From Membranipora membranacea (lineage: Eukaryota; Bryozoa; Gymnolaemata; Cheilostomatida; Membraniporidae), in NCBI GenBank assembly GCA_914767715.1, contig OU612066.1, positions 5,277,001 to 5,341,000 of the forward strand: DNA of 64,000 bases. Direction: 5' to 3'. The notes under the pieces are model-generated. The model worked only from the letters and a program-made list of their open reading frames with translations, was not told the DNA's origin and ran no database searches. How positions within the stretch are numbered: position 1 is the stretch's first letter; the number at the start of each line of letters is the position of its first letter. Made by a program: the position numbers and the translations under genes. Below, in pieces: positions 18,293 to 51,540 of the stretch.

Positions 18293-19589
18293 AGCTGCGT
18301 TTACACTAGGCCGTCTTTTGGCCCAGTCTTGAGTCTGACCGACAAATTACTAAGACGGAGGCTGACACTGTGTAGTGTGAATAACAAAAACGGTTGACTG
18401 ACCTTGTCTGGCAATTCCAGCAGTGCTCGTTTTGCAGTCTCAAGACTGCCAGTCTTAACACAAATTCCTAATTTATAATCACGATACTGCCCTTTGTACT
18501 ATCACTCACATTTAATCAATCATTAATCATCATTTTAATCAATTTATCTAGGCAATTTATAAACTACTTAAGCTACTAAAGCAGCAGCAGCTAATATTAT
18601 AGGCTCTTCATCACTGTCACTGTCCATTTTTAGTGACAATATTTGATTTGATTTGATTTGTATTCATTCAATCATCATGACAGATGGTACAGAATGCGAG
18701 CGATGGTATGGCATAGTAAGAACAACACACTAAAAATTATTTATATACTAGACCGTTGTCATGATAGGTCATGAAAAAATTAAAAAAGCCTTTTCTCCGC
18801 CTTTCAGTCCTGCAGAGTTTTGGCCGAAAAATTTGTATAGCTCGAGAAGATGTTCTGGAATTCTTGTTGAAAAGTAGTTCACTAAAAAGAGGATGTGATT
18901 CATTATTCACTATACGCAGAAAATGTGAATAAGAGATATCAAAAAGAAAATCACAGAGTTTTGGGATGCCTAAGACTGATAATCTATGATCGTATTCTAA
19001 ATCTGGAAAAATTATCTTCAGAGCTGCTCTTTGTATTTTCTCAAGTCTGTCGCGGTTATGTTCGCCTAGCAAGGAATACCAGGCCGGAGCAGCATAGCTA
19101 AGCTTTGAGCGTATGTTGCTCAAATAAAAAGCTTTTAAGCCATCACTGTTTAGTCCAATTGTCTTTAGTTTCCTCATTAAAAATAATCTTGAGCTACAAG
19201 CTGATACTAAAGAGTCTACATGTTTGTTAAAAGACAACTTATTATCAATAAAAACCCCTAAAAATTTTGTAAATGAATTTGGAGAAAAAGATAAATCATC
19301 ATATATGCAGAATCAGATGGAGGGAGCTGAAATTATATTTTCTAGCAATTTTGGTTTTGTTGTCCTTGAACTTGCAGATCCGCAGTAAATTTATCAAGCC
19401 TTGCAGTAAATATCAGCGACCCCATTTGATATCTATCTCATTATTTACATAACTCTGAGACTGACATTGGCTAAGCCGGTGCTATGTAAACACATGCCAG
19501 TCTCAGACTCTGGCTCAGACTTGGGGTTAAGGTCTGCTCAGTCTTGAGTTGGTGGCCAGCTGACGGAGACGGCCTATGTAAACGCAGCT
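18293..19589. mobile_element. Terminal-inverted-repeat element with TTA target duplication
   Basis: Left end AGCTGCGTTTACACTAGGCC and right end GGCCTATGTAAACGCAGCT are inverted repeats, flanked by TTA at 18290-18292 and 19590-19592. A three-base TTA duplication and no transposase of its own fit a non-autonomous PIF/Harbinger-type MITE. The interior is largely occupied by a LINE fragment inserted later. Confidence 0.8.
18640..19318 (-). mobile_element. Non-LTR retrotransposon 3' end (reverse transcriptase C-terminus)
   Basis: Minus-strand reading starts around 19318 (FTKFLGVFIDNKLSFNKHVD) and runs to a stop at 18737. It shows the post-catalytic thumb/connection region typical of animal LINEs (LSYAAPAWYSLL, LEKIQRAALKIIFP). 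On the minus strand it ends in a short tandem tail, (CAAAT)n, near 18640-18665, as many CR1/L2/RTE-like LINEs do. The reverse-transcriptase catalytic core, endonuclease and ORF1 are missing, so this is a 5'-truncated insertion. Confidence 0.85.
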
Positions 19590-24574: not shown

Positions 24575-25626
24575 AGCTGAGGCCACACGATCGTGTAAAT
24601 TTCCACTAATTAGTGCAAATAAAATTTCGTACGAATTTAAGCCTGCCACACAGGATTGTCTCCTCTGAAGTTCGTACAGATGATTTATGGGTGTAATCCT
24701 CCTCAACCAATCAGAAGACAGGAGAGTGTTTAGTGAGCCCAGCTTTGTCATTATTGTCAGTTTCCTGTTTAAAATAGAGGAACAAAGGAGAAGACTGCTT
24801 GCTTTACTTCTCATGAAGAAAAAGGCTTTGTTGCTCAAGAAAAAACGGTTAAATAATGGTCATCTTCAGCAAACAGCAAGAAGACATTGGGTGCATCCGA
24901 TTAACCAACAAAGAGATCGTCTTGGAGTGTATTCCAATCTCATTCATGAGGGACAACAGACGACACATTAAGTATTTAAGAATCATTACAAAATAAAGTA
25001 CAGTTGTGAAATACCCTTTACCAGTGGTTCCTACATATCGTAGCAGCGGGTGGATTGTGTATACCCACAAATGAGTGTAGCAAAAGTAGAGAGCTGAGCC
25101 TAGCATACACGCGCCCCAGCATGCAATCACATGAATCCAACATGCATTCAGACAAGCACACTTTGCCTGCCATTGTACTCCTTTGTTCACCAAACAAAAG
25201 GCCTTTTGTTACACAACTCTCATAGGTGCATTGGGGCATGTCTCCCTGACATCGGCCCCCAGGGCCTATCCAACATACTACAGCATAGGTGTACTTTATT
25301 TTGTAATGATGTCACCAGAAAACTTTGACTATGTTTTGGGTTTGATAAGCCCCCATATCACAAAGAAGGATACTGTCATGAGGAAAGCTATCGAACCAGG
25401 CCTCAAATTTTCTCTGACTCTGCATCATTTGGCTGAGGGTTCAACACAAGCTGCTATAGCTTCCCACTACAAACTAGGAAGGTCAACAGTGTCGCAGATC
25501 ATCCAGGAAACATGCGTAGCCCTGTGGAATGTTCTTCAGCCAATCTACCTCAACCCCCCCTCAGGACCTGAAGAATGGAAACGGGTAGCTCTTGGGTGGG
25601 TATTTTGTTGCTCCATCTTTCACTAA
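24575..25626 (+). mobile_element. PIF/Harbinger transposon, 5' part with HARBI1-like transposase N-terminus
   Basis: The left end follows a TTA at 24572-24574 and begins CTGAGGCCACACGATCGTGT, an end with an internal palindrome. The transposase reads from about 24813: RRHWVHPINQQRDRLGVYSN, then MSPENFDYVLGLISPHITKK, and the helix-turn-helix ASHYKLGRSTVSQIIQETC, all typical of Harbinger transposases. A one-base frame shift lies near 24945, and a foreign inverted-repeat element splits the frame at 24982-25310. The DDE catalytic part (normally starting NCIGAIDGKH-like) was not found downstream, nor was a right-hand terminal repeat, so the element is truncated. Confidence 0.8.
24982..25310. mobile_element. 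Small inverted-repeat element (MITE) nested in the Harbinger transposase
   Basis: The ends carry CATTACAAAATAAAGTAC and its exact inverse GTACTTTATTTTGTAATG, about 330 bases apart. Removing the interval brings the transposase halves HIKYLR and MSPENF next to each other, which supports insertion rather than an intron. The exact target duplication is ambiguous because the arms run into the junction. Confidence 0.75.
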
Positions 25627-33390: not shown

Positions 33391-33394
33391 TTAA

Positions 33395-33600
33395 AGATTA
33401 TCTAGCAGGATAATCTGGGGGGCTAACCAATAAAAACACCTTGTGCAGAAGAGTCTTTTACATACCCCTGTGGATTTTCATAGCTTTCAGTGCACTTGGG
33501 GGCCCATGGCATGTTCTCAAGCACAACCATGTCTAGCAGCACTCACAAAAACATTCACCAGCTGTGCATAGAAAGCTCTGACGTATGTTATTTCCTGTTT
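33395..33600 (+). repeat. Left terminal inverted repeat of the Kolobok element
   Basis: Aligns with the reverse complement of 44908-45108 over its whole length. The tip is itself a palindrome: AGATTATC, a six-base spacer, then GATAATCT. Confidence 0.92.
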
Positions 33601-35825
33601 ACATTCCAATATAAGGAATGTGATCACGTGATATAATGATTTACAATGTTTACAACGGCTGATTATTAACATGAATAACTGGTTAAATTCATGCTGTGGA
33701 ATGTGTTGGAGTGATGGGGGCTGTAGTTGAAGCCCATCTTTATAATCTTAGCTCAATAGATTAATCAATACAGGCTCAGTTTTCTCATACTGACTCTCGT
33801 GATCTGACTGGGCATGTAGATCACTGATAAACTAGGCTATCATTACCACAAAGTGGGTGTCGTAAGGCTAAGTATGCATCATGCGTGACTTGAATTTGCG
33901 CATGTGCAAGAACAATGAGTTTAGTTTGGGTTCTGATTGCAACTTTGGAAAGAGGGAATGGGATACCCCCTGCATAAAATGCTAATCAAAATTTAGCTAA
34001 TAATGACAATAGAAGATAACTCTTACTAACAAATCCGCACGCATATGGCAGTGTGCCACCAGAGCAGGTAGCCAATCAGATGGCTTCGGAGTTCCGAGGC
34101 TCAATTTTGCAGAGATCAGCTCATGCCCAGAGCTGAGCATGCGCAGAATGCAGTTTTCTCACATATCCTCTTCAAAATATTATACCTGCACTCTAAACTT
34201 TCGCGCCATATTGGGAATTCTGGTTATATAGGTCAACTCTTTGAAGTTTGAGGCACAATAATAGTAATCTTGACAAAAGAAAAATGCCTAACAAGAGGAA
34301 ATGTGTAGCTAATTTGTGTCACAGTGTACTGCACTTATATGCCCGGCCAGATGCCTCCAAATACCCTGCCCTGCATAGGAAGTGGTCCAACTGGGTGAAG
34401 GCAGATAGCAATGACTTTCATTACAGCAAAAACACAAGCTTTTTGTGCTGTAAACATTTCACTGATGAGGATTTTACCAACTCTTTCAGATATGCTTCAG
34501 GTGTTGATTCAAAGTAAGTACTAAAGACTTCTACATGCCAATGATTTCATTTTATTCTGACATGCCACTTCATAACCATAAAGAGTGTGAGTCACACAGG
34601 TTGGCCATAAAGGGTATAGGAGAGGCAGAATTCAGCAGGGTGAATTTTTCACTAAAAGTAGCACCTGTCCTTTGTATATAAATAGATGGAAATTGTTGGA
34701 TGGTACAACAGGTCTACTCCAAAACCCAGGGTATTTAGAGTAGACCTGTGGATGGTACAAATAAATAATAAAAGTGTAAAATAGATTGATAGGGACAAAA
34801 ACACAGTCTGATCCTGACAATTTGGCAGCTCAACTGACAGGTAACAGAAAGATAGCTAACCATGATAAATATGAAAGCGAATACAGCCCACATCTGAAGG
34901 AGGTTGTGGGAGATGATTCAATGTATAATATGTAGGCCATGTATATGTATTCAACTATCATCTTCTAGCCTATGAAATTTGAATTTAGTCTTGGCAATTA
35001 AGTCTTGCAAAAGAAATAGTTGTTGACTTTATTCTGTTGACTCATAATCATGGTTATTTCTTTTTTAGACTTAATATTGACAAAGAGAAGGCGGCCCCGT
35101 CAGTACGATTCATTACACAAGAAGACGCCGACAATTCCATGACGCCGAGAAAGGCAAAGGCCACTCCTACCTCCCTCAATCCCAGGATGAGGAGGCATCT
35201 TGTCAGGGATGCAATATCAGAAACAAATCCACAGTAAGTGAAATTGCAGTAAACAAATCTAACAACGGGAGACACTAAGTTCTCTTGATACGCCTCCGTC
35301 ATGGAGCTATACACTTATGACCTAGATGAAAAGCAATAATTTGACTTCATGAAATTGTGTTGACTGTAGGCCTGCATAAGATTTTTCGTGTACCTCAGTT
35401 ATCTACTTAATTTATCTGTGGCCATCTGTGTATTCTGTAATTAGTGTACCATATTTTTCTAGACATAAGCAGGTTGAGAAACTTATCCAGGAGCAGAGAG
35501 CGATAAGAATGCTCAATGCAAAACGATTCATCCCTAAAAACTCTCCACCACCTACGCTCAGGGAAAATCAACATAGTAAAAGTAAGAGGAGTTATTCGTC
35601 TGAAAAGTTGTTCTGAGCAGTTTGTTGTGAATTTTTTGTTGGTTGATAATTATTCTACTTTTCAATCTCGGAATGGTTAGAGTTGGTTATGTCTTTGGTG
35701 TTTGTTGGTAGTTATGATAACCACGTGTCTGCTGCATGGTGCGATTCTTCATCTGCACTGTGATAGAATTCGTTTTTCCCGTTCGTCCTAATTATTTGCT
35801 CAACAATGGTTAATATTTACAATTA

Positions 35826-36895
35826 TTGATATGACCAAAGCAATAATCACTCTAGTTTTCTATCCTGGGGTGATTTTGAATTGGTAATGTCTTTACTAGC
35901 ACTTTATTGCTTCAGTTGTTAAATTCCACTACCACTACCTTCAACTCTCCGCACAATCACATGTTCTCAATGGAGGTGTTGCCGTTGCAAATTCGATTAT
36001 GTTGCCTCTGAGTTAGTTGGATTTCATGGTCACAACATTTGTATATCAATTATTATTGTCGTCGTTATCTCAATCGACAGTTTGTTACACTTTGTCTGAA
36101 TTATTCAGCTCCGTTGCTGTTTTTATTGTCACACTGTTGAAATAGTGTTTGCGTAGTATACTCTCGTTTGTTATTCAATTGCATTCATTGATATGACCAA
36201 AGCAATAATCACTCTAGTTTTCTATCTTGGGGTGATTTTGTATTGGTAATGTCTTTATTAGCACTTAATTGATTCAGTTGTTAAATTCTACTACTACCTT
36301 CAACTCTCCGCACAATCACATGTTCTCAATGGAGGTGTTGCCGTTGCAAATTCAATTATGTTGCCTCTGAGTTTGTTGGATTTTATGGTCACAACATTTG
36401 TATCACAATTGTTATTGTTATCATGTTTCAATCGCCAGTTTGTTATATTATGTCGGAATTATTCAGCTCCGTTGCTGATTTTATTGTCACACTGTTGGAA
36501 TAGTGTCGGCGTAATATACTCACGTTTGTTATTCAATTGCATTCATTGATATGACCAAATCAATAATCACTCTAGTTCTCCATCTTGGGGTGATTTTGAA
36601 TTGGTAATGTCTTTACTAGCACTTTACTGCTTCAGTTGTTAAATTCCACTACTACCTTCAATTCTCCGCACAATCACATGTTCTCAATGGAGGTGCCGCC
36701 GTTGCAAATTTACTTATGTTGCCTCTGAGTCTGTTGGATTTCATGGTCACAACATTTGTATATCAATTATTATTGTCGTCGTCATCTCAATCGACAGTTT
36801 GTTACATTTTATCTGAATTATTCAGCCCTGTTGCTGTTTTTATTGTCACACTGTTGAAATTATGTTGACATAATATACTCACTTCTGTTATTATA
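35826..36895. repeat. Tandem array, three units of about 360 bp, inside the Kolobok element
   Basis: Units start at TTGATATGACC at 35826, 36188 and 36546, giving periods of 362 and 358 bases. They share landmarks such as TCTCCGCACAATCACATG and TTCTCAATGGAGGTG. A degenerate partial fourth unit start is at about 37058. No coding frame is shared by the units. Confidence 0.9.
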
Positions 36896-37476
36896 CAGCT
36901 AAATTTGTCTATGTTGCTTATTTATGTTTATTTAACTGAATCTATTGTGTTTTTTAAGATCTATCCGCTTCCTTACTTGTTTATATTGTCCCACAGTAAT
37001 AAAATTTGTTATGGTGCACTTTCATGTTATCATACAGATAAAAGTTACGTTCTTTGATATGACAAAGCTATAATCATTCTAGTTTTCCATCTTGATTGCT
37101 AATTTTTACCACTATAGTTTTGGTATATTGCCTGATCGGCAGCTTATTTACATGCTGACAGCTTCAAACATAGTGTTGTAAACTGAAATGTAGCAGATTT
37201 GACATAATAGGATAACTATGTTTTCTGTGATTCTGATGCAGTTTCCCCTCGTCTCATCCGTATGACATTATTGCTTTTATGTTTGGGACCTCTGTAGTCG
37301 GCAAATGGGCTGTATTTTGTATTTGGTTGTACATGATTTTGAATTTGGTAGGCACAGTTACTGAGAAGTATGTCTTTCGGCCTCATAGAAGAAGTAAAGC
37401 CTGCCAGGTTAAAATTGAAAGGTAAAGCATTCATTTCAGAATACAATGTATCCCAATTCCCAACCATGATGTACTG

Positions 37477-38030
37477 TAGGGGCTAACCAATAGCCGGGGC
37501 TCTCAACCACTCAGATTTAGCCCGAGTTACTCAGGTTTTTGGGTTCAACTCAGGGGATTATAGAATATAAGGTAAAAACTCAGATTTTGCCTCATATTGA
37601 TCAAAGTTGGGGAATTTCTCTCGGGGTGGCCTAGTTGTATGATTATACAGAAACAATTTTACGTTGTGATATATAAAATACATTAACCAAGATAAATTTT
37701 ACTGTGATTATATATCAATGATCCGCTAACAACTCTAATAAACCAGTATTGTTCCTATGTAGAGGCCTAAATTGCTCTCTAGGCTTTGTCGGCCAGACTC
37801 TTCGAGGAGGCTAACATAGCTATAAAACTGTAAGCTATTTGTGCACAGATCGTTTCACGCCTTTGAAATACCACCCGCAACACGGTATCGGCAAAACTCA
37901 GGTTTTATATCCTCCCAGGTTGAGAGCCCTGCCAATAGCACCATGTTGTGCAGAAGAGTCTTTTACATACAACTACCCAGTCTTATAACATTCTGTGCAC
38001 TTGGTGACCTCCTTGTCATCGCACCATGAT
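37477..38030 (+). repeat. Internal partial copy of the Kolobok end sequence
   Basis: With the inserted MITE removed, the sequence reads GGGGCTAACCAATAGCACC and then GTGCAGAAGAGTCTTTTACA, followed by GTGCACTTGG. This follows the left terminal repeat from about position 33417 to 33505 with substitutions. The outermost palindrome and TTAA are missing, so it is a subterminal relic and not a second complete end. Confidence 0.75.
37495..37931. mobile_element. hAT-type MITE, 437 bp, with perfect 8-bp target duplication
   Basis: The left end CGGGGCTCTCAACC and the right end GGTTGAGAGCCCTG are inverted repeats. CCAATAGC occurs immediately outside both ends, at 37487-37494 and 37932-37939. An 8-base duplication with short ends starting C(A/G)GGG is the hAT signature. 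No transposase is encoded, so it is non-autonomous. Precise removal restores the Kolobok end-like sequence. Confidence 0.92.
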
Positions 38031-41000
38031 TAACAGACACAAGAAAAAAAAGCTCTAATAAGTGCAAATTAGTTGCAATTTATTCTTATTTGAGATACCG
38101 ACGGTGCTTGCATGTGACATAGTTTTTTTCAACATATTTGTGATATTTTATCAACTCTATAGCACGGAAGAAGAGACAACAACAACCACCAACGACATTG
38201 CAGATGAGGAAGACCTCTCAGAGACCGTCAGCATTGAGTCATGTGATGAAGATCAGGTCAGTTTATCAACGCGTAATTCTAAAAATGATATGGATGAGGA
38301 TTACGCAGAAATGTATGCTGTCTCAATTTTTGTAGGGGAGCTTGTGTAGGATTTGCTGAGGAAACAGTATTTGAGTGTCCACAGCAAAGTTACAATGATG
38401 ACAATCATCACAAAATACCTATAGAAATGTTTAGAATGAACATGATACAAAGTTTATTCTTCAAGATTTCAAAAAATTGAATTGCCTGACGATAAAACTT
38501 TATATTAAATTTACCCAGCAGTATCATTTATTATCATTAATATTATGATGATGAAGTCGTGCTGTTGTGTGATAACCTTTTTTATGCATCTTGAAGATAT
38601 CTGATAGTGATCTAGAAAGTTCAGATCCAGAAGTTGACAGCGATGATTCAGACTATGTACCGGATGTAGAAGAAGAAGACTGGAGAGACTTCAGTCATTT
38701 TAACATCAGCAGTCAAGTGAAATATTTTATTCTGATTTGCTGTCCGTGGAATTTAAATTACATATATGAGATGAGTCAGACCCTGACACTAAATATTGTT
38801 GGCGCAGGGTTCACTGCACAGGTTGTTATTAGCGTACACTGCTGGTACCGAGTGTTGCTGATAGTATGATGGTCAGAACAGATAATCGGCATAAGTTTTA
38901 CAATTTTAAACTCTTGCTATAAATTTGGTGGAATAAATTTGAGGTATTTATAACCTGTACTCTGATAACTTATGTTTATTGTTAAGTCACACAGCTGCAG
39001 ATAACTTCTATTATCGTTACAACCAGTGCTTTTATATCCTATTGTGAAGTTTGGTTTGATGTGAACTGTAGACCTGGTTATCTCTATAAAGAAGAAAAGA
39101 TTATCGTATCAGTGAACTCCCTCAGAAGATTGATGGATGTATGCACAGAGTGTGCTCAGCCGTGTACGGTTAACCTTACAGAAAAACAGGGTGCATATGT
39201 CGAATTTGAAATCATATGCAATACGTAAGTTCTCTAGACAATATAATAGAATTACGAGCTGATCATTTTTCGTTCTGCCATAATATTTACAATTATATGA
39301 TAAAATGTATAGTGTAAGTTGACATCCCTTCTTAGTAGAACCTTGTGATAATCTTCAACCTAAAATACCTTACAATCATTGCGACAAATAGTTCAACAGC
39401 TGGACTGCATTACACTAGCATTTAATTACATTTTATCCCATCAAATCTTGATCCTGAAGTGAAAAAATATCCAAGCTCTCAGAAACTGTTGATGTTGATG
39501 ATCAGAATAACTTATTTTGGCAGCATCGTCAATGATTCAGACTACAAAACTTGAGATCCGCAGGGCTTATATTTCACAAGTTTCTGAACTTGTGTTATGG
39601 GTATTATGCTAAAAAGCAAAAACAATGTTTTCAGATGTGCTAGCATCAGGACATGGTGCAACGTTCCAAGACTGGGAAGAAGTTATCCCATCAACAATCT
39701 GATTGCTGGTGCCATCTTGTTCACCGGGGCATCTGTTGCCAAATCACTACGATTGTGCAGTGTACTAAATATAGCTCGGCGGTCAGAGAGCACTGTGAAC
39801 TATATACAGCGACACTACCTTCATGGAGTAAGTAATAATCTACTTGATGGAGATATTTCTCATAATAGTGATTCCCCGTATCGGAATTCAAACTCACTCC
39901 ATAAAATGTATAACATTTGGTTTTGCACTATTACCGAATTAAATTACAATTATACATAGTACCTCAATTTTTATAACAAATTAAGTCGCTTTCGCCTTAT
40001 GAGAAAGCCAACATATAGTGCTCTCAATTGATCAATAGATTGATTGTTGTACATGTTTAATAAATGTGAAGTGGAAAATTGATGGTATATTTTGTCAAAC
40101 GACAGGCCTATAACAAATTCAGGCAATATAATAGATATTATTCTCATTAAGTAAAAAATGTGTTATTATTTCCATATAATAGCTGCACTATATATTGCAT
40201 CTGTTTTTGGTTCTCACTCTGGTGAGCTCTGAATATTTTGGCTTTCCCCCTCTGTAGGTCGTCAATGAAGTATATACCTCAAAAAACGAGGCGATACTAG
40301 CTGCGGCAGGTATGGAGCCAATCAACATATCAGCAGATGGGCGATGCGATTCCCCAGGGCGATGCGATTCCCCAGGGCATTGCGCCCTGTATGGAATCAA
40401 TACTATGATGGACCATGAAACTAAATTGATTGTGACCTCACAGTTGATAAAGGTAACACTATCAGCGATTAGTTAATTGCACCCCTTTTTCAAAACTAAA
40501 GAAAATTGAAAACAATTTCTACTTATTTTTATAATTTACAATCATGTACCAGCGTCCTCCAGTGCACTGAAATCAATGAAAAGGGAATACACTGAGAATC
40601 CAATACAGCGAGGTCAATATGTTTTCAACTGTTGGCATTGTTTTATTCCAATAGTCCACAGAATGTACAAGCAGCAATGCCATGGAACTAGAAGGTTTTA
40701 AGAGAGCACATGCAGTGCTGAGTGATCACAGCGTCGCTGTGAAAAGTGTCACCACAGAGAGACACAGAGGTGTGGGGGTATACATGCGTGAAGAATGGAA
40801 GGACGCCAAACACTTTTATGATACATGGCATATTTCCAAAGGTAACACCAGATATTTACTTTGCAGCGATTCCAATTTCCCTTCACCAGGAATTATACAG
40901 TTAAATCCCTATAATGAACTGGATTCGAGTCACTGTCAAGAACAACATAATTTTCCAGTCATTATGTAGTACGCAATAGCTAGGATTGTTTGGAAACAAC

Positions 41001-42410
41001 AATATGCATAAGCAACAATATTTTATTCCAAGGTATTCACGTATCTTAGGATGACCTTGAAAAACATCCATTTTCAGATTTTTGTTCTGTACCATGCAGG
41101 TCTGAAGAAAAAACTCTCGAAAAAATCAAAAATGGAGCCTTACAAACTCCTCTCTCATGCCAGCAGCTCAGGAAATACCTGGATAAAATCGATAACCAAC
41201 CATCTTTATTGGGTGGTGTCCTCCACAGAAGATCCAGAACTCAGAGTTGCTAGGTGGAAGATCCTAATCGACCATATAAGAGACATACATACCCAGTGTG
41301 ATCATGGTCCTCTGACGAAAAAATGGGTGCCAAAAGGTAATTACACCATCAAGGTTTATTGATCACATCACCTAGTTGTTTGTCTAAGTTGACTTTTGGA
41401 GTGCTCTGCTCTTTTACCAGAGGATGACAACTCTAGTAGCTGTGAAGGTATCGCATACGCGATTTATCAATCACATTATGTATGGACTGTATCTCAAGTT
41501 ATTGACAATATTTACTGCAACCTGATTTATTACCAATTATGTTCTTCTCACCTATTGCAGGTGGAGCTCTGGATCTGTATTTACAGAAAGAACTCTTGGC
41601 GACCCGTCTTCTTAACGACATTCGAATGGCAGGTCAGGAAGGAACTAGTGAACTCTAAGCGTTCCATAAAACTCTGAACCATTTCGCACCCAAGCTAACA
41701 GGCTTTAGCTACAACGGGATGCGTTCAAGGTATGTCCAATGTTAGCCTATCCTGACGAGCTTTGTTTGGTGCAGCTAGTCTAGTTTATGCTTAGTACACT
41801 GTATGCATCTGTTCCATGCATGTTAGATATGTGGCAGGTATGACTACAACGCAAATAAATTTCCCAGCAGCAAAGATGATAACCACAAGTGGCATTTCGA
41901 TTTTCACCTTTTAGGTTGAGTGTGTGTATATTGTACCACAATGAGAATACAGAGAGAGGATACGTGAGGAACAAAGACAACAAATACCGGTATAAGATTG
42001 GGAGACATAAAGACACCAAACTGGTCCCGACAGCTAATCTGGTCAAAGTGGAACCAACATACGGTAAATTATAAAATTGTTGCATTTTAGCCAGATTCCG
42101 ATACCTTTTACAGACACTGTTTGTCATATTAATTGATTGATTCAAATGGAAGTAAACTCGATCATGTAGGAAGGTAACTTAAGTCCATGTCACAACAAAC
42201 ACATTGATTTTCCACATAATTGCAGGGTATGTAGCAGAGCTCATGGAGCTACTAGAAGACTATCTTGCTGGAAACAAGAAACCAATTTTCCAACCCAAGC
42301 AGCCGCCTACACTGTACAGCAAAGCCCCTCAAGAGGCTAGGGAAACGACAATCGCAAAATGCATGGAAAGCTCAAGAGGATTCAGTAGGAAAAGAAAATT
42401 AGACGGATAA

Positions 42411-43017
42411 TGTTTATTTTTTGAATATCTTTCAGTATATTGTATGTTTTGAAGATGGATTAATGGATTATCGAATTCCTTATCCTGTTATCCGAGTCGA
42501 TAAAAGTATAAAATATGTGACATTACAACAATACCATATCTGGATTGTCAAACATGATGATAATTGGCTAATGTTGTGTGTTACATAACAAAAGGTAACA
42601 TCCAAAGACGGTAGTTGGCAGTGAGTCTAAGAGAAAAATATAAATTCAATGAAAATAACCTGCCTGTAGGGATGGAATCTCCCTTAGGACATATTAAAAA
42701 CGTAAAAGACCAATGTGTGTGTTGCTAAGAAAATGATGCGCAGTTTAGGCTACATGGAGGAGGGCAGGTAGGTATTAGGTTTATTTTACATCCTCTATCA
42801 CAATTATGCGACAAAACTGAATGCTTTGAGAGCTGTTTGGCATTTAAAAATTATTGTAAATAGATGAAACTGTTGTTCCGAAACATCATAAAGTAATTGA
42901 TAAAAACTATGGCACCATCCGCAGATACAGAAGAGAGAGAGGAACATAATATTGCCTAACAACAGACTTACATGGAAGAAAGTTAACTTCTAGTGTACAT
43001 TATTAACTAGAAGAGTG
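42411..43017. other. Spacer between the two convergent Kolobok genes
   Basis: No coding exon recognised. It probably holds the two 3' UTRs. Confidence 0.4.
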
Positions 43018-44563
43018 TCATAAATTTCCGGCATCACCGTAACAAAAACCCTTGAACTGATAGTCCGCATATACTTCTTCATCCTCTGATGGTGGTATTT
43101 TATTGCGAATGTAATTCACAAGGCAGGATGGCAGCGGTTTCCTCTCTCCCTTCTGTATTGCTTGAAAAATCCAGAATGTCATATTTCTGTAAGCACATAA
43201 ACGTTTACGAGCATTCCCAGCCGGTTCCTCATCAGGAAATAGATTTTCTGAAATAAGAAGTATGAATACTCATAATACAATATCATTCTTAAAATTTTTT
43301 TAAAGATATGAACAACAGAGCCTTTTGACCTTTGAGCGTCGTGTCTGCAGTTTCTTATTTAACTCATAAACTACCATTATTGCTACTGTTTGTAGACCAA
43401 AGTTGAGATGTTCAGTAAACAAATGCATACATGGTAAATTTTTGTGAGTTGAAGACTACTTTTCTGCAGCCATGCGGGGATCATCGTATATAAATGACAT
43501 CAAACAAACAAGACAAAATGGCAAAAAATATACTGATTAAATCAGCTAGTAGAAATAAGAGCTGATTCGATAATTTGAACTTGTCGTATCATACTCATCA
43601 AGCAATAACAACATATGGCCACGCTCCCTGGGATACAGCCTAGTCCTAAATTAATACTCACCATGATAATGCTTGTAATTATTCCAAGCAAGTTCCAAGG
43701 GAGTATCTGCCAGTAGCTCGTCTACACCAGGGTGCTGGTGAATGCATTGCAGCTCCTGCCCTCTTTCTTGTAGCCTAAATTGGGCATCATGGTTATGGCA
43801 ACACACACATTGGTCTCGAAACTCCTCATTCTGGCAATACCCACAAGTACAAAACTCTTCTGTTGGAATACCAGCTGCTCGCATCTGTAATGAATGTAAT
43901 GGTGGAATTAATGTTGGCTAACTCTCAATCGCACGGAGTTTGTGCAAGGATGTGCAGGCTCATACCTTTACATAGCTTCCTGTAGACAACTGGACTAAAA
44001 ACAATAGTGTAAATTACAGAAATGATATTAATTGTTACTTTTTAGTGATCAAACTTAACTATATATATGCTGCAAGCTATGCAATGCATCATTACCAGTG
44101 TCTATCTAATACAATCAATGATTTAATAATATCCCAGTATCAAAAAGAAATTTACCATGTATGTATATATTTATATGGTATCCACAAATCAAATACTGCT
44201 TTTCTCAAATCTCAGAGTTTGGTTACTCAATCATTGAATCAATGGTAGCCTACCAACCTAGCTTTTGCAAGCAAACAATGAAATTTTCACTTCATACAGG
44301 GAGCAGATAGATAGGTATAAACCAAAAATATACCCAGGTAAATGTGTATAACCTAATAGAAGTAAAAATATAAACCAAACCACTGATGAACTGAAAAAAG
44401 ATAAGGTACTTACTTGCTCTGGTGGTTGGGGATTAAAAACATCATCAGCATTTTCATCATCATCTGATGGCTCAAACCTGAAAGGCCTGACAGCCTGTAG
44501 GTCATTAGGGATGCTGCAGCTGCTAACTGAACTTTGACTATCACTCTCACTTTCAGATGACAT
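43018..44563 (-). CDS. P2X7-tail ('ballast') domain protein carried by the Kolobok element
   Basis: Three exons with clean GT-AG borders and matching phases (44563-44414, 43884-43662, 43247-43018) give a predicted 200-residue protein with no break. The Ser/Asp/Glu-rich N-terminus (MSSESESDSQSSVSS) is followed by the short motif RPFRFEP. Next come a cysteine cluster (FCTCGYC, then CVCCH, then CIHQHPGVD), LELAWNNYKHYHG, and a second part RKRLCAYRNMTFWIF, PLPSCLVNYIRNKIPP and VYADYQFKGF. This order is that of the cytoplasmic ballast domain of vertebrate P2X7 receptors and of stand-alone invertebrate 'P2X7-like' proteins. In vertebrate P2X7 the domain binds zinc and guanine nucleotide. There is no transmembrane or channel part here. 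The gene starts about 350 bases inside the right terminal repeat and faces the transposase gene. Its role is unknown; by position it is an accessory protein of the transposon. Confidence 0.88.
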
Positions 44564-44605
44564 ATTTTTCACAGATAGCAGTGGAGTAGAGTAGGCAATG
44601 AATGA

Positions 44606-44663
44606 GAATTGAACAAGTAAATTGAACAAGTAAATTGAACAAGTTGAGTTGAACAAGTAAATT
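44606..44663. repeat. Short tandem repeat upstream of the P2X7-tail gene
   Basis: Four imperfect copies of TTGAACAAGTAAA, unit about 13-16 bases, in the probable promoter or 5' UTR of the minus-strand gene. Confidence 0.8.
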
Positions 44664-44907
44664 GAGGCAATGGACAGACAGACAGAGAATAGACAAAATC
44701 TACCAGCAATACCATGAAATTAACGACTGCTATCAGTATTACCCGATAATTATAGCCCTTGGGAGTGATGAATCATAGGCTAATCAAGTAGCAATCTGGG
44801 GAACTTGACCTATAAAAAAAAGGGTTTTTCCTGCAGAATAATATGGCCAATCAAATAACATCATAAGATGTAAACAAAAACGCACGTGTTGTAAGCAAGC
44901 TCATATA

Positions 44908-45108
44908 GGAAACAACACACGTCAGAGCTTTCTATGCACAGCTGGTGAATGTTTTTGTGAGTGCTGCTAGACATGGTTGTGCTTGAGAACATGCCATGGG
45001 CCCCCAAGTGCACTGAAAGCTATGAAAATCCACAGGGGTATGTAAAAGACTCTTCTGCACAAGGTGTTCCTATAAGTTAGCCCCCTAGATTATCCTGCTA
45101 GATGATCT
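44908..45108 (-). repeat. Right terminal inverted repeat of the Kolobok element
   Basis: Inverse of 33395-33600, with differences mostly in the outer 40 bases (CAATAAAA against TTATAGG). Its tip is AGATCATC, six bases, then GATAATCT, so the tip palindrome carries one mismatch here. Confidence 0.92.
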
Positions 45109-45112
45109 TTAA

Positions 45113-46996: not shown

Positions 46997-47946
46997 ATGG
47001 ACCGCGCTGCTTCTCACAAGGTTGAAGAAGTTCAAAAGCTAACTAATACTCACGCTGTACTTTTACCTGGAGGATGCACATCACTAGTTCAGCCCTTGAT
47101 GTGGCGCTGAATAAACCGTTCAAGGACAGAATGCGGGTTATGTGGAAGAGATGGTTGGATATCCCTGCTGCAGAGCAACAGCTCACCAAGAAAGGGAATC
47201 GCCAGCATGTGAGTATCTTATTATATTCCATCATAGTTCTCCATTACTAGAACAAGCACCTGCCTAATGAATGTTTTTATTTTTGTTTGGTTTGGAACAT
47301 CATCAAAATGTATATAACATTATGATATATCTTTTGATTTAAGTTGTTGAAAGTTAAAGGAGCTGTAAATGAAGTCATGATTGCATGTGGAAAATGTGTG
47401 TTAATCTACTATTAATGAATGGTTGTTCATACTTATAGGCATACTTGACTGTCAGTGAGTGAGTATCTGAGGCGTGGGAGCAGATGCCTGAAGCTATGAT
47501 ACGCAATTCCTTTACTGCTGCCGGATCATACCATGTACCAACTGGTCGGATCTGACACACAGCAGGCTGAAGGCTTTAGTAGACCCAGAGGCTCCATTAG
47601 TGATTGATGAGGAAGAGGAGGATGTGAACACACTCGAGGAAGCGCAAGGGTTTCTTACTGACCTGGAAACTGATAATGGTAAGTGTGATTGTGGCGAGTA
47701 CAGGGAAAGGGCAGAATACTGTCCAAAGAGAGATTATTTATTGTATAGCAAGTCCTATTCAAGCTTGTTGACCTCCATGCAATAACAGTTTTGTTGGTTA
47801 CCAAATTCATGTTAAAATGGAAAAAGGCAACTCCAAATATAACCTGTAAAAATAATAATAATAATCCTGTCAATTTGTAGAAAGTTTTGGTAGTTCAGAT
47901 GATGACGATGAAGGGGAATGGACACTGGGAAAGATACCAACCTGAA
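46997..47946 (+). pseudogene. pogo/Tigger-type transposase C-terminal part
   Basis: Exon about 46997-47208 reads VLLPGGCTSLVQPLDVALNK then DRMRVMWKRWLD, the words around the last acidic catalytic position of pogo-like DDE transposases. One base is missing between QP and LDVALNK. A second exon (about 47439-47681) has two in-frame stops before LVDPEAPLVIDEEEED. A third (47882-47946) reads SFGSSDDDDEGEW and ends at a natural stop. The acidic C-terminus is normal for this family. The helix-turn-helix half and the first two Asp residues are missing. Confidence 0.7.
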
Positions 47947-47959
47947 GTTTGTGCTCTCA

Positions 47960-49095
47960 AAGGCCAACCACTCTCAGAACTCCACTCAGACCAACTCAGC
48001 TCAGGCCGACCAATCTCAGGCAAACCAGTATCAGAACTCAACTCGGAACTCAGCTCAGGCCGACCAGTCTCAGGCAAACCAGTATCAGAACTCCGCTTGG
48101 AACTCAGCTCAGGCCGACCAGTCTCAGGCAAACCACTCTCAGGCAAACCAGTATCAGAACTCCACTCGGAACTCAGCTCAGACCATGCAGTCTCAGACCA
48201 ACAAGTATCAGAACTCCATACAGAACTCAGCTCAGGCCGACCAGTCTCAAGCAAACCAGTATCAGAACTTTACACAGAACTCAGCTCAGGCCATCTCAGC
48301 TCAGGCCGACCAGTCTCAAGCAAACCAGTATCAGAACTCTACACAGAACTCAGCTCAGACCATCCTGTCTCTCACTCAGAACTCGGCTCAGGCCGACCAG
48401 TCTCAAGCAAACCAGTCTCAAGCAAACCAGTCTCAAGCAAACCAGTATCAGAACTCTACACAGAACTCGGCTCAGACCAACCAGTCTCACACTCAGAACT
48501 CAGCTCAGGCCATCCAGTCTGAGGCCAACCAGTTTCTTCAGAACTTCACACAGAACTCAACACAGAACTCAGCTCAGGCCGACCAGTCTCAAGCAAACCA
48601 GTATCAGAACTCTACACAGAACTCAGCTCAGGCCAACTCAGCTCAGGCCGACCAGTCTCAAGCAAACCAGTATCAGAACTCTACACAGAACTCAGCTCAG
48701 ACCATCCAGTCTCACACTCAGAACTCGGCTCAGGCCGACCAGTCCCAGGCCAACCAGTTTCTTCAGAACTTCACACAGAACTCCACACAGACCTCAGCTC
48801 AGACCGACCAGTCTCAAGCAAACCAGTATCAGAACTCTACACAGAACTCAGCTCAGACCATCCAGTCTCACACTCAGAACTCGGCTCAGGCCGACCAGTC
48901 CCAGGCCAACCAGTTTCTTCAGAACTTCACACAGAGCTCCACACAGACCTCAGCTCAGACCGACTAGTCTCAAGCAAACCAGTATCAGAACTCTACACAG
49001 AACTCAGCTCAGACCAACCAGTCTCACACTCAGAACTCTGCTCAGACCATTCTCAGGCCAACCAGTTTCTTCAGAACTCCACACAGAACACAGCT
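47960..49095. repeat. Coding-like minisatellite, basic unit 54 bp
   Basis: About twenty variant units built from AACTCAGCTCAGGCCGACCA and TCTCAAGCAAACCAGTATCA. Units and deletions are mostly multiples of three, so all three + frames stay open for long stretches: one reads (NSAQADQSQANQYQ)n, one (RPTSLRQTSIRTP)n, one (SSGRPVSGKPVSEL)n. The array starts right after the pogo stop codon and runs, in the Arg-rich frame, into the transposase start at 49128. Confidence 0.93.
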
Positions 49096-49127
49096 CAGGT
49101 CGACCAGTTGTTATTGAGCCAAGCAGC

Positions 49128-51540
49128 ATGGCTAAGACTAATGCTCAGAAACAAAAAGAGTACAGGGATCGCAAAAGACTGCAGCTAGGCAAAGAAGAAT
49201 ATGATAAAAAAGAGGCAGAACGCAAGCGCGCACAATGGCATAAAGAGCTTGAGAAGTCAAGAACACAGCATCGGCAAAAGATGAAAAGACAACGTAGCAC
49301 CAAGCGTGACAAATCTCTTGCTGAAGATATAGCTGATGTTGAGAGAATTGATACCCCCCAGGCTACTCGATCACCTCACAGCTACACCTGGATATCCAGT
49401 CTCAGTCGAGCAATATCGAGAGTGAAAAACCGACTGCCAAAGTCTCCTCGCAAGAAGAAAGCTGTGATCAAAGCGCTGACCACCTCTTTTGCTGACACAC
49501 CACAACCTGCTCTAGCTGCAAGCCCAAGCACTCCCAGAGAAAGGGACCGACAGCCATCTCTAGAGAAGTTGAAGCCAGGGTGAGGGAGTTTTATTTACGC
49601 CAAGAAGTTTCATGGACATCGCCTGGCTTGAAAGATTTCAAGACGATGACGATCGACGGTGCTAAGGTAGGCAATAGTATTGATCCCTTATCATCGATAA
49701 ATGCGAAACAAACGCCATTATTTCGCATTTATGTTGCTTATTTATTTGGAGCATCAATTCACTATGGCCTTAAGGTGTTTGCGGGGGAAATTGATATTAT
49801 AATAGTAATATAAATTTCCAACTATATTTCAATTTAGGTGAGAAAACAAAAGCGATATCTGCTGCTGACTTTGAAAGAGCTGGTTCCAGGGTGTACCAAG
49901 AAGAATATCCTGATGATAAAGTGCAACTATCGAAGTTCGAGGAGTCATGACCACCACTTGTCTTGTTTACCAACAATTTTCCCCACAATGTCTTGTCTGT
50001 GAAATTCACACTTATTTCGAGAATGTTTTGTCTTCTGTTTCTAAGCTGAATGTTGATGAGTTTTGGCAGTAGCCTGCTGTATAATGGCTAGTGAAGCATG
50101 TATGCTTGATGCCTGCAATAAGTGTGTGTCTGATCTCATAAGTTATCTCGATAAACTGCAGCTCAAGGCAGAAGATGTGAACCGTGAAATCTGCTGGAAA
50201 CTGTTGGAGAAGACCACAACCCGCCCGGTACAGAAGGAGTACGAAGGCCCCATCAATGAAGCGGTGGAAAAGCTGGCCAGTCTGTTCCAGGAGGTTAAGA
50301 GGCACCACTTCATAGCAAAGAAACAAGCCAAGATATTTAACCAGATGAACTCAAGCCCTCTACCTGGTCAGATGGTTCTACAGATAGATTTTAGCGAGAA
50401 TGCCTCTTTGGTGCCACAAGATGTGATTCAGAGCTCCCACTGGAACCACAACCAGGTTACGGTCTTCATCCCTGTAGCATGGACCCAAGATCATACCTTC
50501 AGCAATGCTGTCATATCTGATATGAGAGATCATGATAAGGTTGCAACAGCAAAGTTCATCGACACCACCATCGACGATGTGAAATCGAAGTTACAGATAA
50601 ACGAGGTCCACATCTTTAGTGATGGGGCCACTCAGCATTTTAAGTCTAGGTTCATGATGGCCTATCTCTCGTCAATACCACATAGAAAGGATGCCAGCGC
50701 CACATGGCATTTCTTTGCCACATCCCATGGGAAGGGGGCAGTGGATGGAATTGGTGGTAATGTCAAGCGGAAGGTCAGGAAAGAGATTCTGAGCAGGCGT
50801 GTTATTGTCAATACAGCCGCTGAGTTTGCTGTGGTGGCAAGAAACACATCAAATCAGACCATCATCATATTCATCACGGAAGAAGATATAAGAAATCAGG
50901 AGCCCATGTATAAAGATCTATGGAAAGATCCCAAGTTGAAAGGAATAAGGGGAATGCACTACGTGAAAGCGAGGAGCTATGGTACAGTAGAGGTCGCTTT
51001 GTATAGCCAGCAACCCAACGCGCGTGAAGCATGTGATGTTTGAGCTCAGTGCAGAAGAGCAGGATGCCATCAACGTTCCAGAGAGACAAGATCAGATAGT
51101 GCTGCCGCATTATGTTGAACTGGCGATCAATGGGGAAGATGTGGATGCAGAGGATTCGACAACCGCCATTGAGCCCATGCACTTAACCGAGGCGGCAGCT
51201 CCTGTTGCCCATGATGATGTGAATGCAACTAATAGGCCTGCTCATACATCCTCACGTGACATCCAGAGAGGTGAGCTTGTGGCAGTAGCATATGAAGAGG
51301 ACTGGTTCATCAGCGAGGTGACAGATAGTGGATGAAAATAAGTTTGAAATCAGCTCGATGACTAAGACCGGAAAGTCCTTCAAGTGGCCTGCTAAGAAAC
51401 AAGTCGACATCACACACAGAAACTTCATCTTGAAGGTTGTCCCACGACTCACCCCATCATCCAACCTGAGATACTCAGAGGTTAACAATATTGATGATAT
51501 TGTTGCTGAGTACAGCAGATACTGCGACAAGTATTTTTAG
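49128..51540 (+). pseudogene. DDE-like transposase of the 'ATSH' family, copy 2 (nearly complete)
   Basis: The start ATG at 49128 opens a basic bZIP-like N-terminus (TNAQKQKEYRDRKR), then Lys/Arg-rich sequence. After a frame change near 49530-49580, RVREFYLRQEVSWTSPGLKD follows, then an intron (49672-49838) and RKQKRYLLLTLKELV. The main frame, 50084-51043, has a CNKC zinc-ligand pair, VLQIDFSEN, WNHNQVTVF, VHIFSDGATQHFKSRF and WHFFATSHGKGAVDGIGGNV KR. The acidic residues of IDFSEN and FSDGA are plausible catalytic positions. C-terminal parts are in two more frames (51045-51335 with AYEEDWFISEV; 51330-51540 with GKSFKWPAKK). Several frame breaks make this copy inactive, but the central 320-residue frame is intact. 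Confidence 0.78.

Follow-up and report, generated by a model that had tools for sequence, protein, structure and literature searches.

Kolobok DNA transposons of the Kol0 group have been reported to encode a protein named KolX, which has a ballast fold with seven cysteines and was aligned to residues 476-595 of human P2X7; the same authors proposed that P2X7 originated when a P2X4-like gene was fused to KolX (Kojima and Bao, 2022; PMC9587614). The link between KolX and P2X7 and the fusion proposal have therefore been in print since 2022 and are not new. What is new here is a bryozoan host, a quantified test of the pairing between KolX and transposase, and trees of the two genes that agree on their main split. 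The starting point is a stretch of 64,000 nucleotides from Membranipora membranacea (C2:5277001-5341000 in our contig numbering), referred to below as the window, whose positions 33395-45108 are, with very little doubt, a copy of a Kolobok DNA transposon that has two genes, KolX among them.

Rump et al. (2020; PMC7016195) described stand-alone ballast (ZCD) genes across animals, one or a few (fewer than 10) in each species, and saw no large families among them. Their main text nowhere uses the stem 'transpos', and the main text of a study of Xenopus Koloboks (PMC6004289) mentions neither KolX nor P2X7. In vertebrates, Kolobok transposases are reported to have been domesticated, as KolX probably was in the case of nanor (PMC6004289; PMC9587614). 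The P2X7 ballast binds guanosine diphosphate (GDP), and two arginines that contact it, R546 and R578, are conserved in invertebrates according to Rump et al. (PMC7016195). The P element has in common with Kolobok a THAP finger and a catalytic core of the C/DxxH class (the class as given in PMC9587614); its transposase requires guanosine triphosphate (GTP) and contains an inserted domain that binds it (PMC7776569). Neither this element nor a ballast expansion such as that described below was found reported in the literature searched, most subscription journals lying outside its coverage.

The element and its two genes

The element proper measures about 11.7 kb and reads AGAT...ATCT. With the TTAA included, each inverted arm (33391-33596; 44907-45112) spans 206 nt, and the two are 96% complementary. 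Three features by which Koloboks are recognized are found in the window, namely a TTAA target-site duplication, 5'-RR and YY-3' ends (here AG...CT) and a DDD/E transposase with a C/DxxH motif, the last judged from homology to 109 proteins and from the motif DTWH, with the presumed catalytic residues damaged. The many-exon, DDE-type transposase lies on the plus strand and consists of a THAP-like exon, further exons and an eight-exon core at 39072-42410; opposite to it, on the minus strand, lies the three-exon KolX gene. The features of the element are as follows.

33391..33394, no strand: left TTAA target-site duplication, read from the sequence
33395..33596, plus strand: left terminal inverted repeat, 202 bp, 96% complementary to the right end, with more copies in the genome
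34284..34513, plus strand: transposase exon 1, THAP-like zinc finger (Pfam THAP; splice sites and phase)
35069..35233, plus strand: transposase exon 2 (splice sites and phase)
35463..35575, plus strand: transposase exon 3 (probable)
38163..38256, plus strand: possible acidic linker exon (uncertain; phase of the join unsettled)
38597..38716, plus strand: possible acidic linker exon (uncertain)
39072..39224, plus strand: transposase core exon
39635..39827, plus strand: transposase core exon
40258..40452, plus strand: core exon with the first catalytic D motif and an 18-bp in-frame duplication at 40339
40655..40841, plus strand: core exon in which E replaces the presumed second catalytic D (40751-40765); the DxxH motif DTWH comes next
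41100..41336, plus strand: core exon with the H/C zinc-finger region
41561..41729, plus strand: core exon with an in-frame TAA (41656-41658) at the presumed last catalytic E
41915..42063, plus strand: transposase core exon
42226..42410, plus strand: last transposase exon, stop codon included
42696..42767, plus strand: degenerate extra piece of KolX exon 2, on the strand opposite to the gene (tblastn, 58% over 24 amino acids, one stop)
43018..43247, minus strand: KolX exon 3, C-terminal part of the ballast
43662..43884, minus strand: KolX exon 2, six of the seven zinc cysteines
44414..44563, minus strand: KolX exon 1, acidic and serine-rich, with the motif RPFRFEP
44907..45108, minus strand: right terminal inverted repeat, by complementarity to the left end
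45109..45112, no strand: right TTAA target-site duplication, read from the sequence

The KolX frame (603 nt, 200 amino acids) runs through exons 44563-44414, 43884-43662 and 43247-43018, with GT-AG introns predicted from the sequence. Pfam P2RX7_C matches the product with 35.8 bits against a curated cut-off of 23.5 (E 9.8e-9) and is its sole Pfam domain at E <= 1; no P2X channel domain was found in it. All seven zinc cysteines of the P2X7 ballast are present, pairing with rat C477, C479, C482, C498, C499, C506 and C572, and they are invariant across an alignment of 11 chosen KolX proteins. A profile of these 11, with no P2X7 included, retrieved four distinct sequences from the PDB at E <= 10, all of them P2X7 (best 2e-16). 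A single-sequence KolX search of the protein collection yielded 54 candidates, none at E <= 0.001, and the alignment used as query gave nine matches, all from environmental sources; in viral contigs no relative was found.

The seven introns of the transposase core are all GT-AG and preserve the reading phase, and a single internal stop, the TAA at 41656, interrupts the frame. Exon 1 matches Pfam THAP at E 1.1e-4 with 23.3 bits, slightly below the cut-off of 23.9, and several homologues carry PF05485. Of 109 homologues at E <= 0.001, the first by E-value is from Bugula neritina (44% identity) and the third from Watersipora subatra (48%), both bryozoans; a PDB search with the window transposase returned no meaningful match. 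Twelve of the homologues were aligned with the window sequence, giving 13 rows, and we assigned the presumed catalytic residues by motif order. At the presumed second catalytic position the window has E where 12 of 12 homologues have D, at the presumed last position a stop where all 12 have E, and in the first D motif the 18-base duplication inserts six residues relative to the homologues. Between the C/DxxH motif and the last E, H277, H301 and H306 are invariant in the 13 rows and C309 and H311 nearly so, a region that we read as the probable Kolobok zinc finger.

The first-pass annotation had described a Kolobok-type element bounded by TTAA duplications and inverted repeats of about 200 bp, with a clean three-exon gene for the P2X7 tail, its frame intact, opposite a broken transposase. 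The TTAA on both sides, the 202-bp ends and the 200-residue frame with its P2RX7_C match bear this out. 'Broken' is likewise correct for the transposase, since the stop, the E-for-D change and the in-frame duplication hit all three presumed catalytic motifs, and a working transposase cannot come from this copy.

Two further observations concern the interior of the element. A transposase intron contains three tandem copies of a 358-base unit (35825-36892), and a small hAT-like insert at 37495-37931, whose ends are inverted (GGGCTCTCAACC) and which shows the 8-base duplication CCAATAGC, lies within an internal copy of the element end (about 37480-38010).

Copies and pairing across the genome

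The genome searched comprises 339 Mb in 18 contigs. With the element ends as query, 40 of 57 candidates were scored, so that copy counts are lower bounds. Strong end matches (at least 94%) number at least eight: the window pair, a pair at C5:6719365-6725090 (copy B), and single ends on C5 (two), C4 and C6. Copy B keeps both ends but has lost the middle of the transposase, and its KolX is frameshifted by an 8-base deletion in exon 2. Copy C, on C6, keeps one end and an open KolX frame, and of copy D (C5, 19.6 Mb) there remain the left end, the THAP-like exon and a portion of KolX exon 3. The other two, one on C4 and one at C5:11.38 Mb, consist of some 210 bases of end alone and are uninformative on KolX. 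Divergence from the window is about 1 to 2% over long pieces. The annotation had asked whether other copies of the ends enclose the gene: among the matches listed, KolX sequence is present in all four informative close copies (ends at least 94%; the window, B, C and D) and intact in the window and on C6. The arrangement in the window is thus not due to chance, because further copies exist in the genome.

The degenerate piece of KolX exon 2 that sits between transposase and KolX (42696-42767) is also present in copies B and D, and is therefore an old part of the window family. The 4% difference between left and right ends was considered as a means of dating the insertion and ruled out, because seven of its eight differences recur in copy B and are thus old family features, unusable as a clock. 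Among the 40 scored end matches, 28 stop at end base 164 and cover the middle only (from base 35, 42, 45, 59 or 60) at 71-75%; these perhaps represent a related small element family.

An exon-wise search with Pfam P2RX7_C detected at least 81 matches in the genome at E <= 1, of which 58 were flagged above the cut-off. The best 20, read as loci of 3.2 to 3.5 kb, are mostly members of repeated families, with many pairs 94 to 99.9% identical. Families K2, K3 and K4 have a sharp common edge at a TTAA, beyond which the flanks are unrelated; the edge of K5 is ambiguous. The bases that follow the TTAA are AG in K2 and K3 and AC, not RR, in K4. Both ends were seen for K2, and the second end of K3 is approximate. 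Transposase sequence is present in 15 of these 20 loci, on the strand opposite to KolX in 15 of 15, while control stretches totalling 134,956 bases gave no transposase match. Longer stretches recovered the transposase for two of the five missing loci (L022 and L036). They also revealed multi-exon Kolobok transposase segments facing KolX in the element chosen from each of K2 to K7 (6/6, scored by presence of segments). Two K3 copies on different contigs, L040 and L041, are 99.9% identical over 2.36 kb, which suggests very recent movement; their KolX is without the N-terminal cysteines. L052 (C10:855446-855865) departs from the other loci read in that its ballast match and a piece of transposase share one strand.

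The converse search, with a hagfish Kolobok transposase (P0018), gave at least 52 matches at E <= 1e-4 in at least 44 loci, again lower bounds, as 93 of 246 candidates were scored. Among the matches listed, 21 of the 44 loci have one of 80 ballast loci within 10 kb, and every one of the 21 pairs is tail-to-tail (head-to-head 0, same strand 0). In 1000 control trials with shifted positions, for which an extent of C9 was assumed, such pairs averaged 0.34 and numbered 6 at most.

The KolX gene is thus a resident partner of the transposon and not a chance passenger, though many related transposases lack it. The annotation's suggestion that the domain is transposon-encoded is upheld by the close copies (4/4), by the six other families and by the 21 of 44 loci with their uniform orientation. 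Where it had foreseen, for a chance passenger, copies lacking the gene or a gene found mostly outside elements, repeated pairing was observed instead. Its word 'cargo' is unsuitable, because KolX recurs at the same place in several families.

Gene histories and the role of KolX

In the KolX tree, K2, K3, K4 and L024 (K8) stand apart from a side that comprises K5, K6 and K7 together with the window and P2X7. The transposase tree, approximate since its rows were pieced together from tblastn segments, likewise separates K2, K3 and K4 from K5, K6 and K7; the window groups with the latter when the seven are taken alone and joins Bugula when references are added. This shared main split suggests long joint inheritance of the two genes, without being proof of it. 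P2X7 falls with the window and K5-K7 at 88/97, a placement that was set aside given the very long window branch, the use of only two P2X7 rows and the arbitrary root. The ratio of nonsynonymous to synonymous substitution rates (dN/dS), which the first-pass annotation had proposed to compute, is 0.18-0.25 between the KolX genes of L022, L023 and L027, with dS saturated (1.9 and 2.5) in the two pairs that involve L027 and an uncorrected pooled ratio of 0.44. This check accordingly indicated constraint between these loci, but the window family has too few differences: the window and C6 KolX differ by two synonymous and three nonsynonymous changes, counts too small to judge selection.

Several observations weigh against KolX as a resident partner of these transposons. 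Within 10 kb of 23 of the 44 transposase loci there is no ballast match among the matches listed. Pfam Mutator PF20700, which covers other Kolobok/Mutator-type transposases, failed as a handle on KolX-linked ones: by eye, only 2 of its 114 matches have ballast within 10 kb, in both cases on the same strand. KolX therefore belongs to some Kolobok lineages, not all. The 21 pairs do not represent 21 independent events, because several are copies of one family. Five lower-ranked ballast loci comprise two that are tail-to-tail, one with a transposase piece on the same strand and two without. A relative on C1 (L014, C1:14700333), whose end is 81% like that of the window, with 79% over 419 bases of the right end, has no KolX match in the approximately 8 kb fetched inward of the end; it may be a KolX-less or a truncated relative. 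The KolX of K3 (L040) and L024, both outside the 11-row alignment, are without some of the cysteines. The main split of the KolX tree has a support of 88/97, below the level that the tool marks with a star, with the window on a very long branch, and the two trees disagree within K5-K7, K7 pairing with K5 in the KolX tree (84/81) but with K6 in the transposase tree (98/93). Likeness to Kol0 is judged by the occurrence of KolX beside the transposase, which is observed. Within families, KolX is nearer to neutral, with pooled ratios of nonsynonymous to synonymous differences per site (pN/pS) of 0.35 to 0.87 and, in K4, eight nonsynonymous changes against no synonymous one; an open frame in one copy therefore says little about selection. 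Constraint between families together with near-neutrality within them is the pattern expected of a gene that is needed during movement and is neutral after landing.

Capture by chance, in which this one transposon picked up a host ballast gene, could account for the three exons of the window KolX, where K2 to K7 each have a single uninterrupted frame in at least one copy, for its identity of only 20-30% to their KolX, and for the distant C1 relative without KolX in the stretch fetched. It is scarcely credible in the face of the other copies of the window element that carry KolX, the six other families with the same place and direction, the tail-to-tail orientation of all 21 neighbouring pairs genome-wide and the main split that the gene trees share. 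On the present data, the repeated association of KolX and transposase rules out a chance passenger. The window KolX might instead have become a host gene, which would explain an intact KolX beside a dead transposase; each of the three presumed catalytic motifs is indeed damaged while KolX is still open, and vertebrate precedents exist among Kolobok transposases and, probably, in nanor (PMC6004289; PMC9587614). Such domestication is very unlikely, given that the KolX of the C6 copy is also open and that of copy B frameshifted, that little time has elapsed since the copies split, because they differ by about 1 to 2%, and that the two synonymous and three nonsynonymous differences between the window and C6 bear no sign of selection.

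The readings that follow concern what KolX does. Probably, by analogy with other two-gene DNA transposons, KolX is an accessory helper of transposition. The transposase would excise the element and paste it into TTAA sites, and KolX, a small putative zinc-binding ballast protein transcribed toward the transposase from the opposite end, would be supplied along with it. KolX would stay with the element since the element moves better with it, and a recent insertion probably explains why the frame of the window copy is still open. As published (PMC9587614), this domain became the tail of vertebrate P2X7. An antagonist or regulator that limits transposition or shields the element from host silencing would differ from the helper in the role of KolX alone and fits the pairing and the between-family constraint equally well, but many relatives lack KolX, and we consider this role possible, though doubtful. 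More specifically, KolX could be a guanine-nucleotide subunit of the Kolobok transposition complex, an idea by analogy that seems to us improbable; the equivalents of R546 and R578 are invariant in the 11 KolX and in a second, eight-row alignment that includes the cysteine-poor K3. If it were true, vertebrate P2X7 would have inherited its GDP site from a transposition cofactor.

The pairing confirms, independently and with numbers, that a transposon protein supplies the tail domain of P2X7, an important receptor in inflammation. Some of the transposons in this lineage are young and numerous, which makes the function of KolX, and hence the original function of the P2X7 ballast, testable.

Elsewhere in the window, a long array of CAGAACTCAGCTCAG-type repeats at 47881-49583 is open in all three forward frames. 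Two other open frames were noticed: 18737-19312 on the minus strand, which presumably resembles the end of a reverse transcriptase and has no Pfam match, and 25135-25626 on the plus strand, presumably resembling the start of a Harbinger-type transposase, with weak helix-turn-helix matches alone in Pfam.

Comparison with described systems

The closest described systems are the Kol0 Koloboks with KolX, which likewise combine a TTAA target, RR/YY ends and a DDE transposase with KolX (PMC9587614); the window copy differs in its length of 11.7 kb, its 202-bp inverted ends, its many-exon transposase, its three-exon KolX and its bryozoan host. Xenopus Koloboks resemble it in having a Kolobok transposase, which in their case has THAP, DDE and H2CH motifs (PMC6004289). 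The P2X7 ballast (P2RX7_C; PDB 6u9v and 9e3m) is similar in its seven zinc cysteines and in R546, A549, Y550, P570, R578 and P582, all of which have equivalents in KolX, whereas KolX is a short stand-alone protein with an acidic N-terminal region, in which no P2X channel part was found. Stand-alone ballast genes and nanor are also short proteins that end in a ballast domain and have no other domain (PMC7016195). They differ from the situation in Membranipora, where a single genome holds at least 81 ballast matches, many of them beside a transposase; contrary to the published impression that no large families exist, ballast sequences can occupy dozens of sites in a genome.

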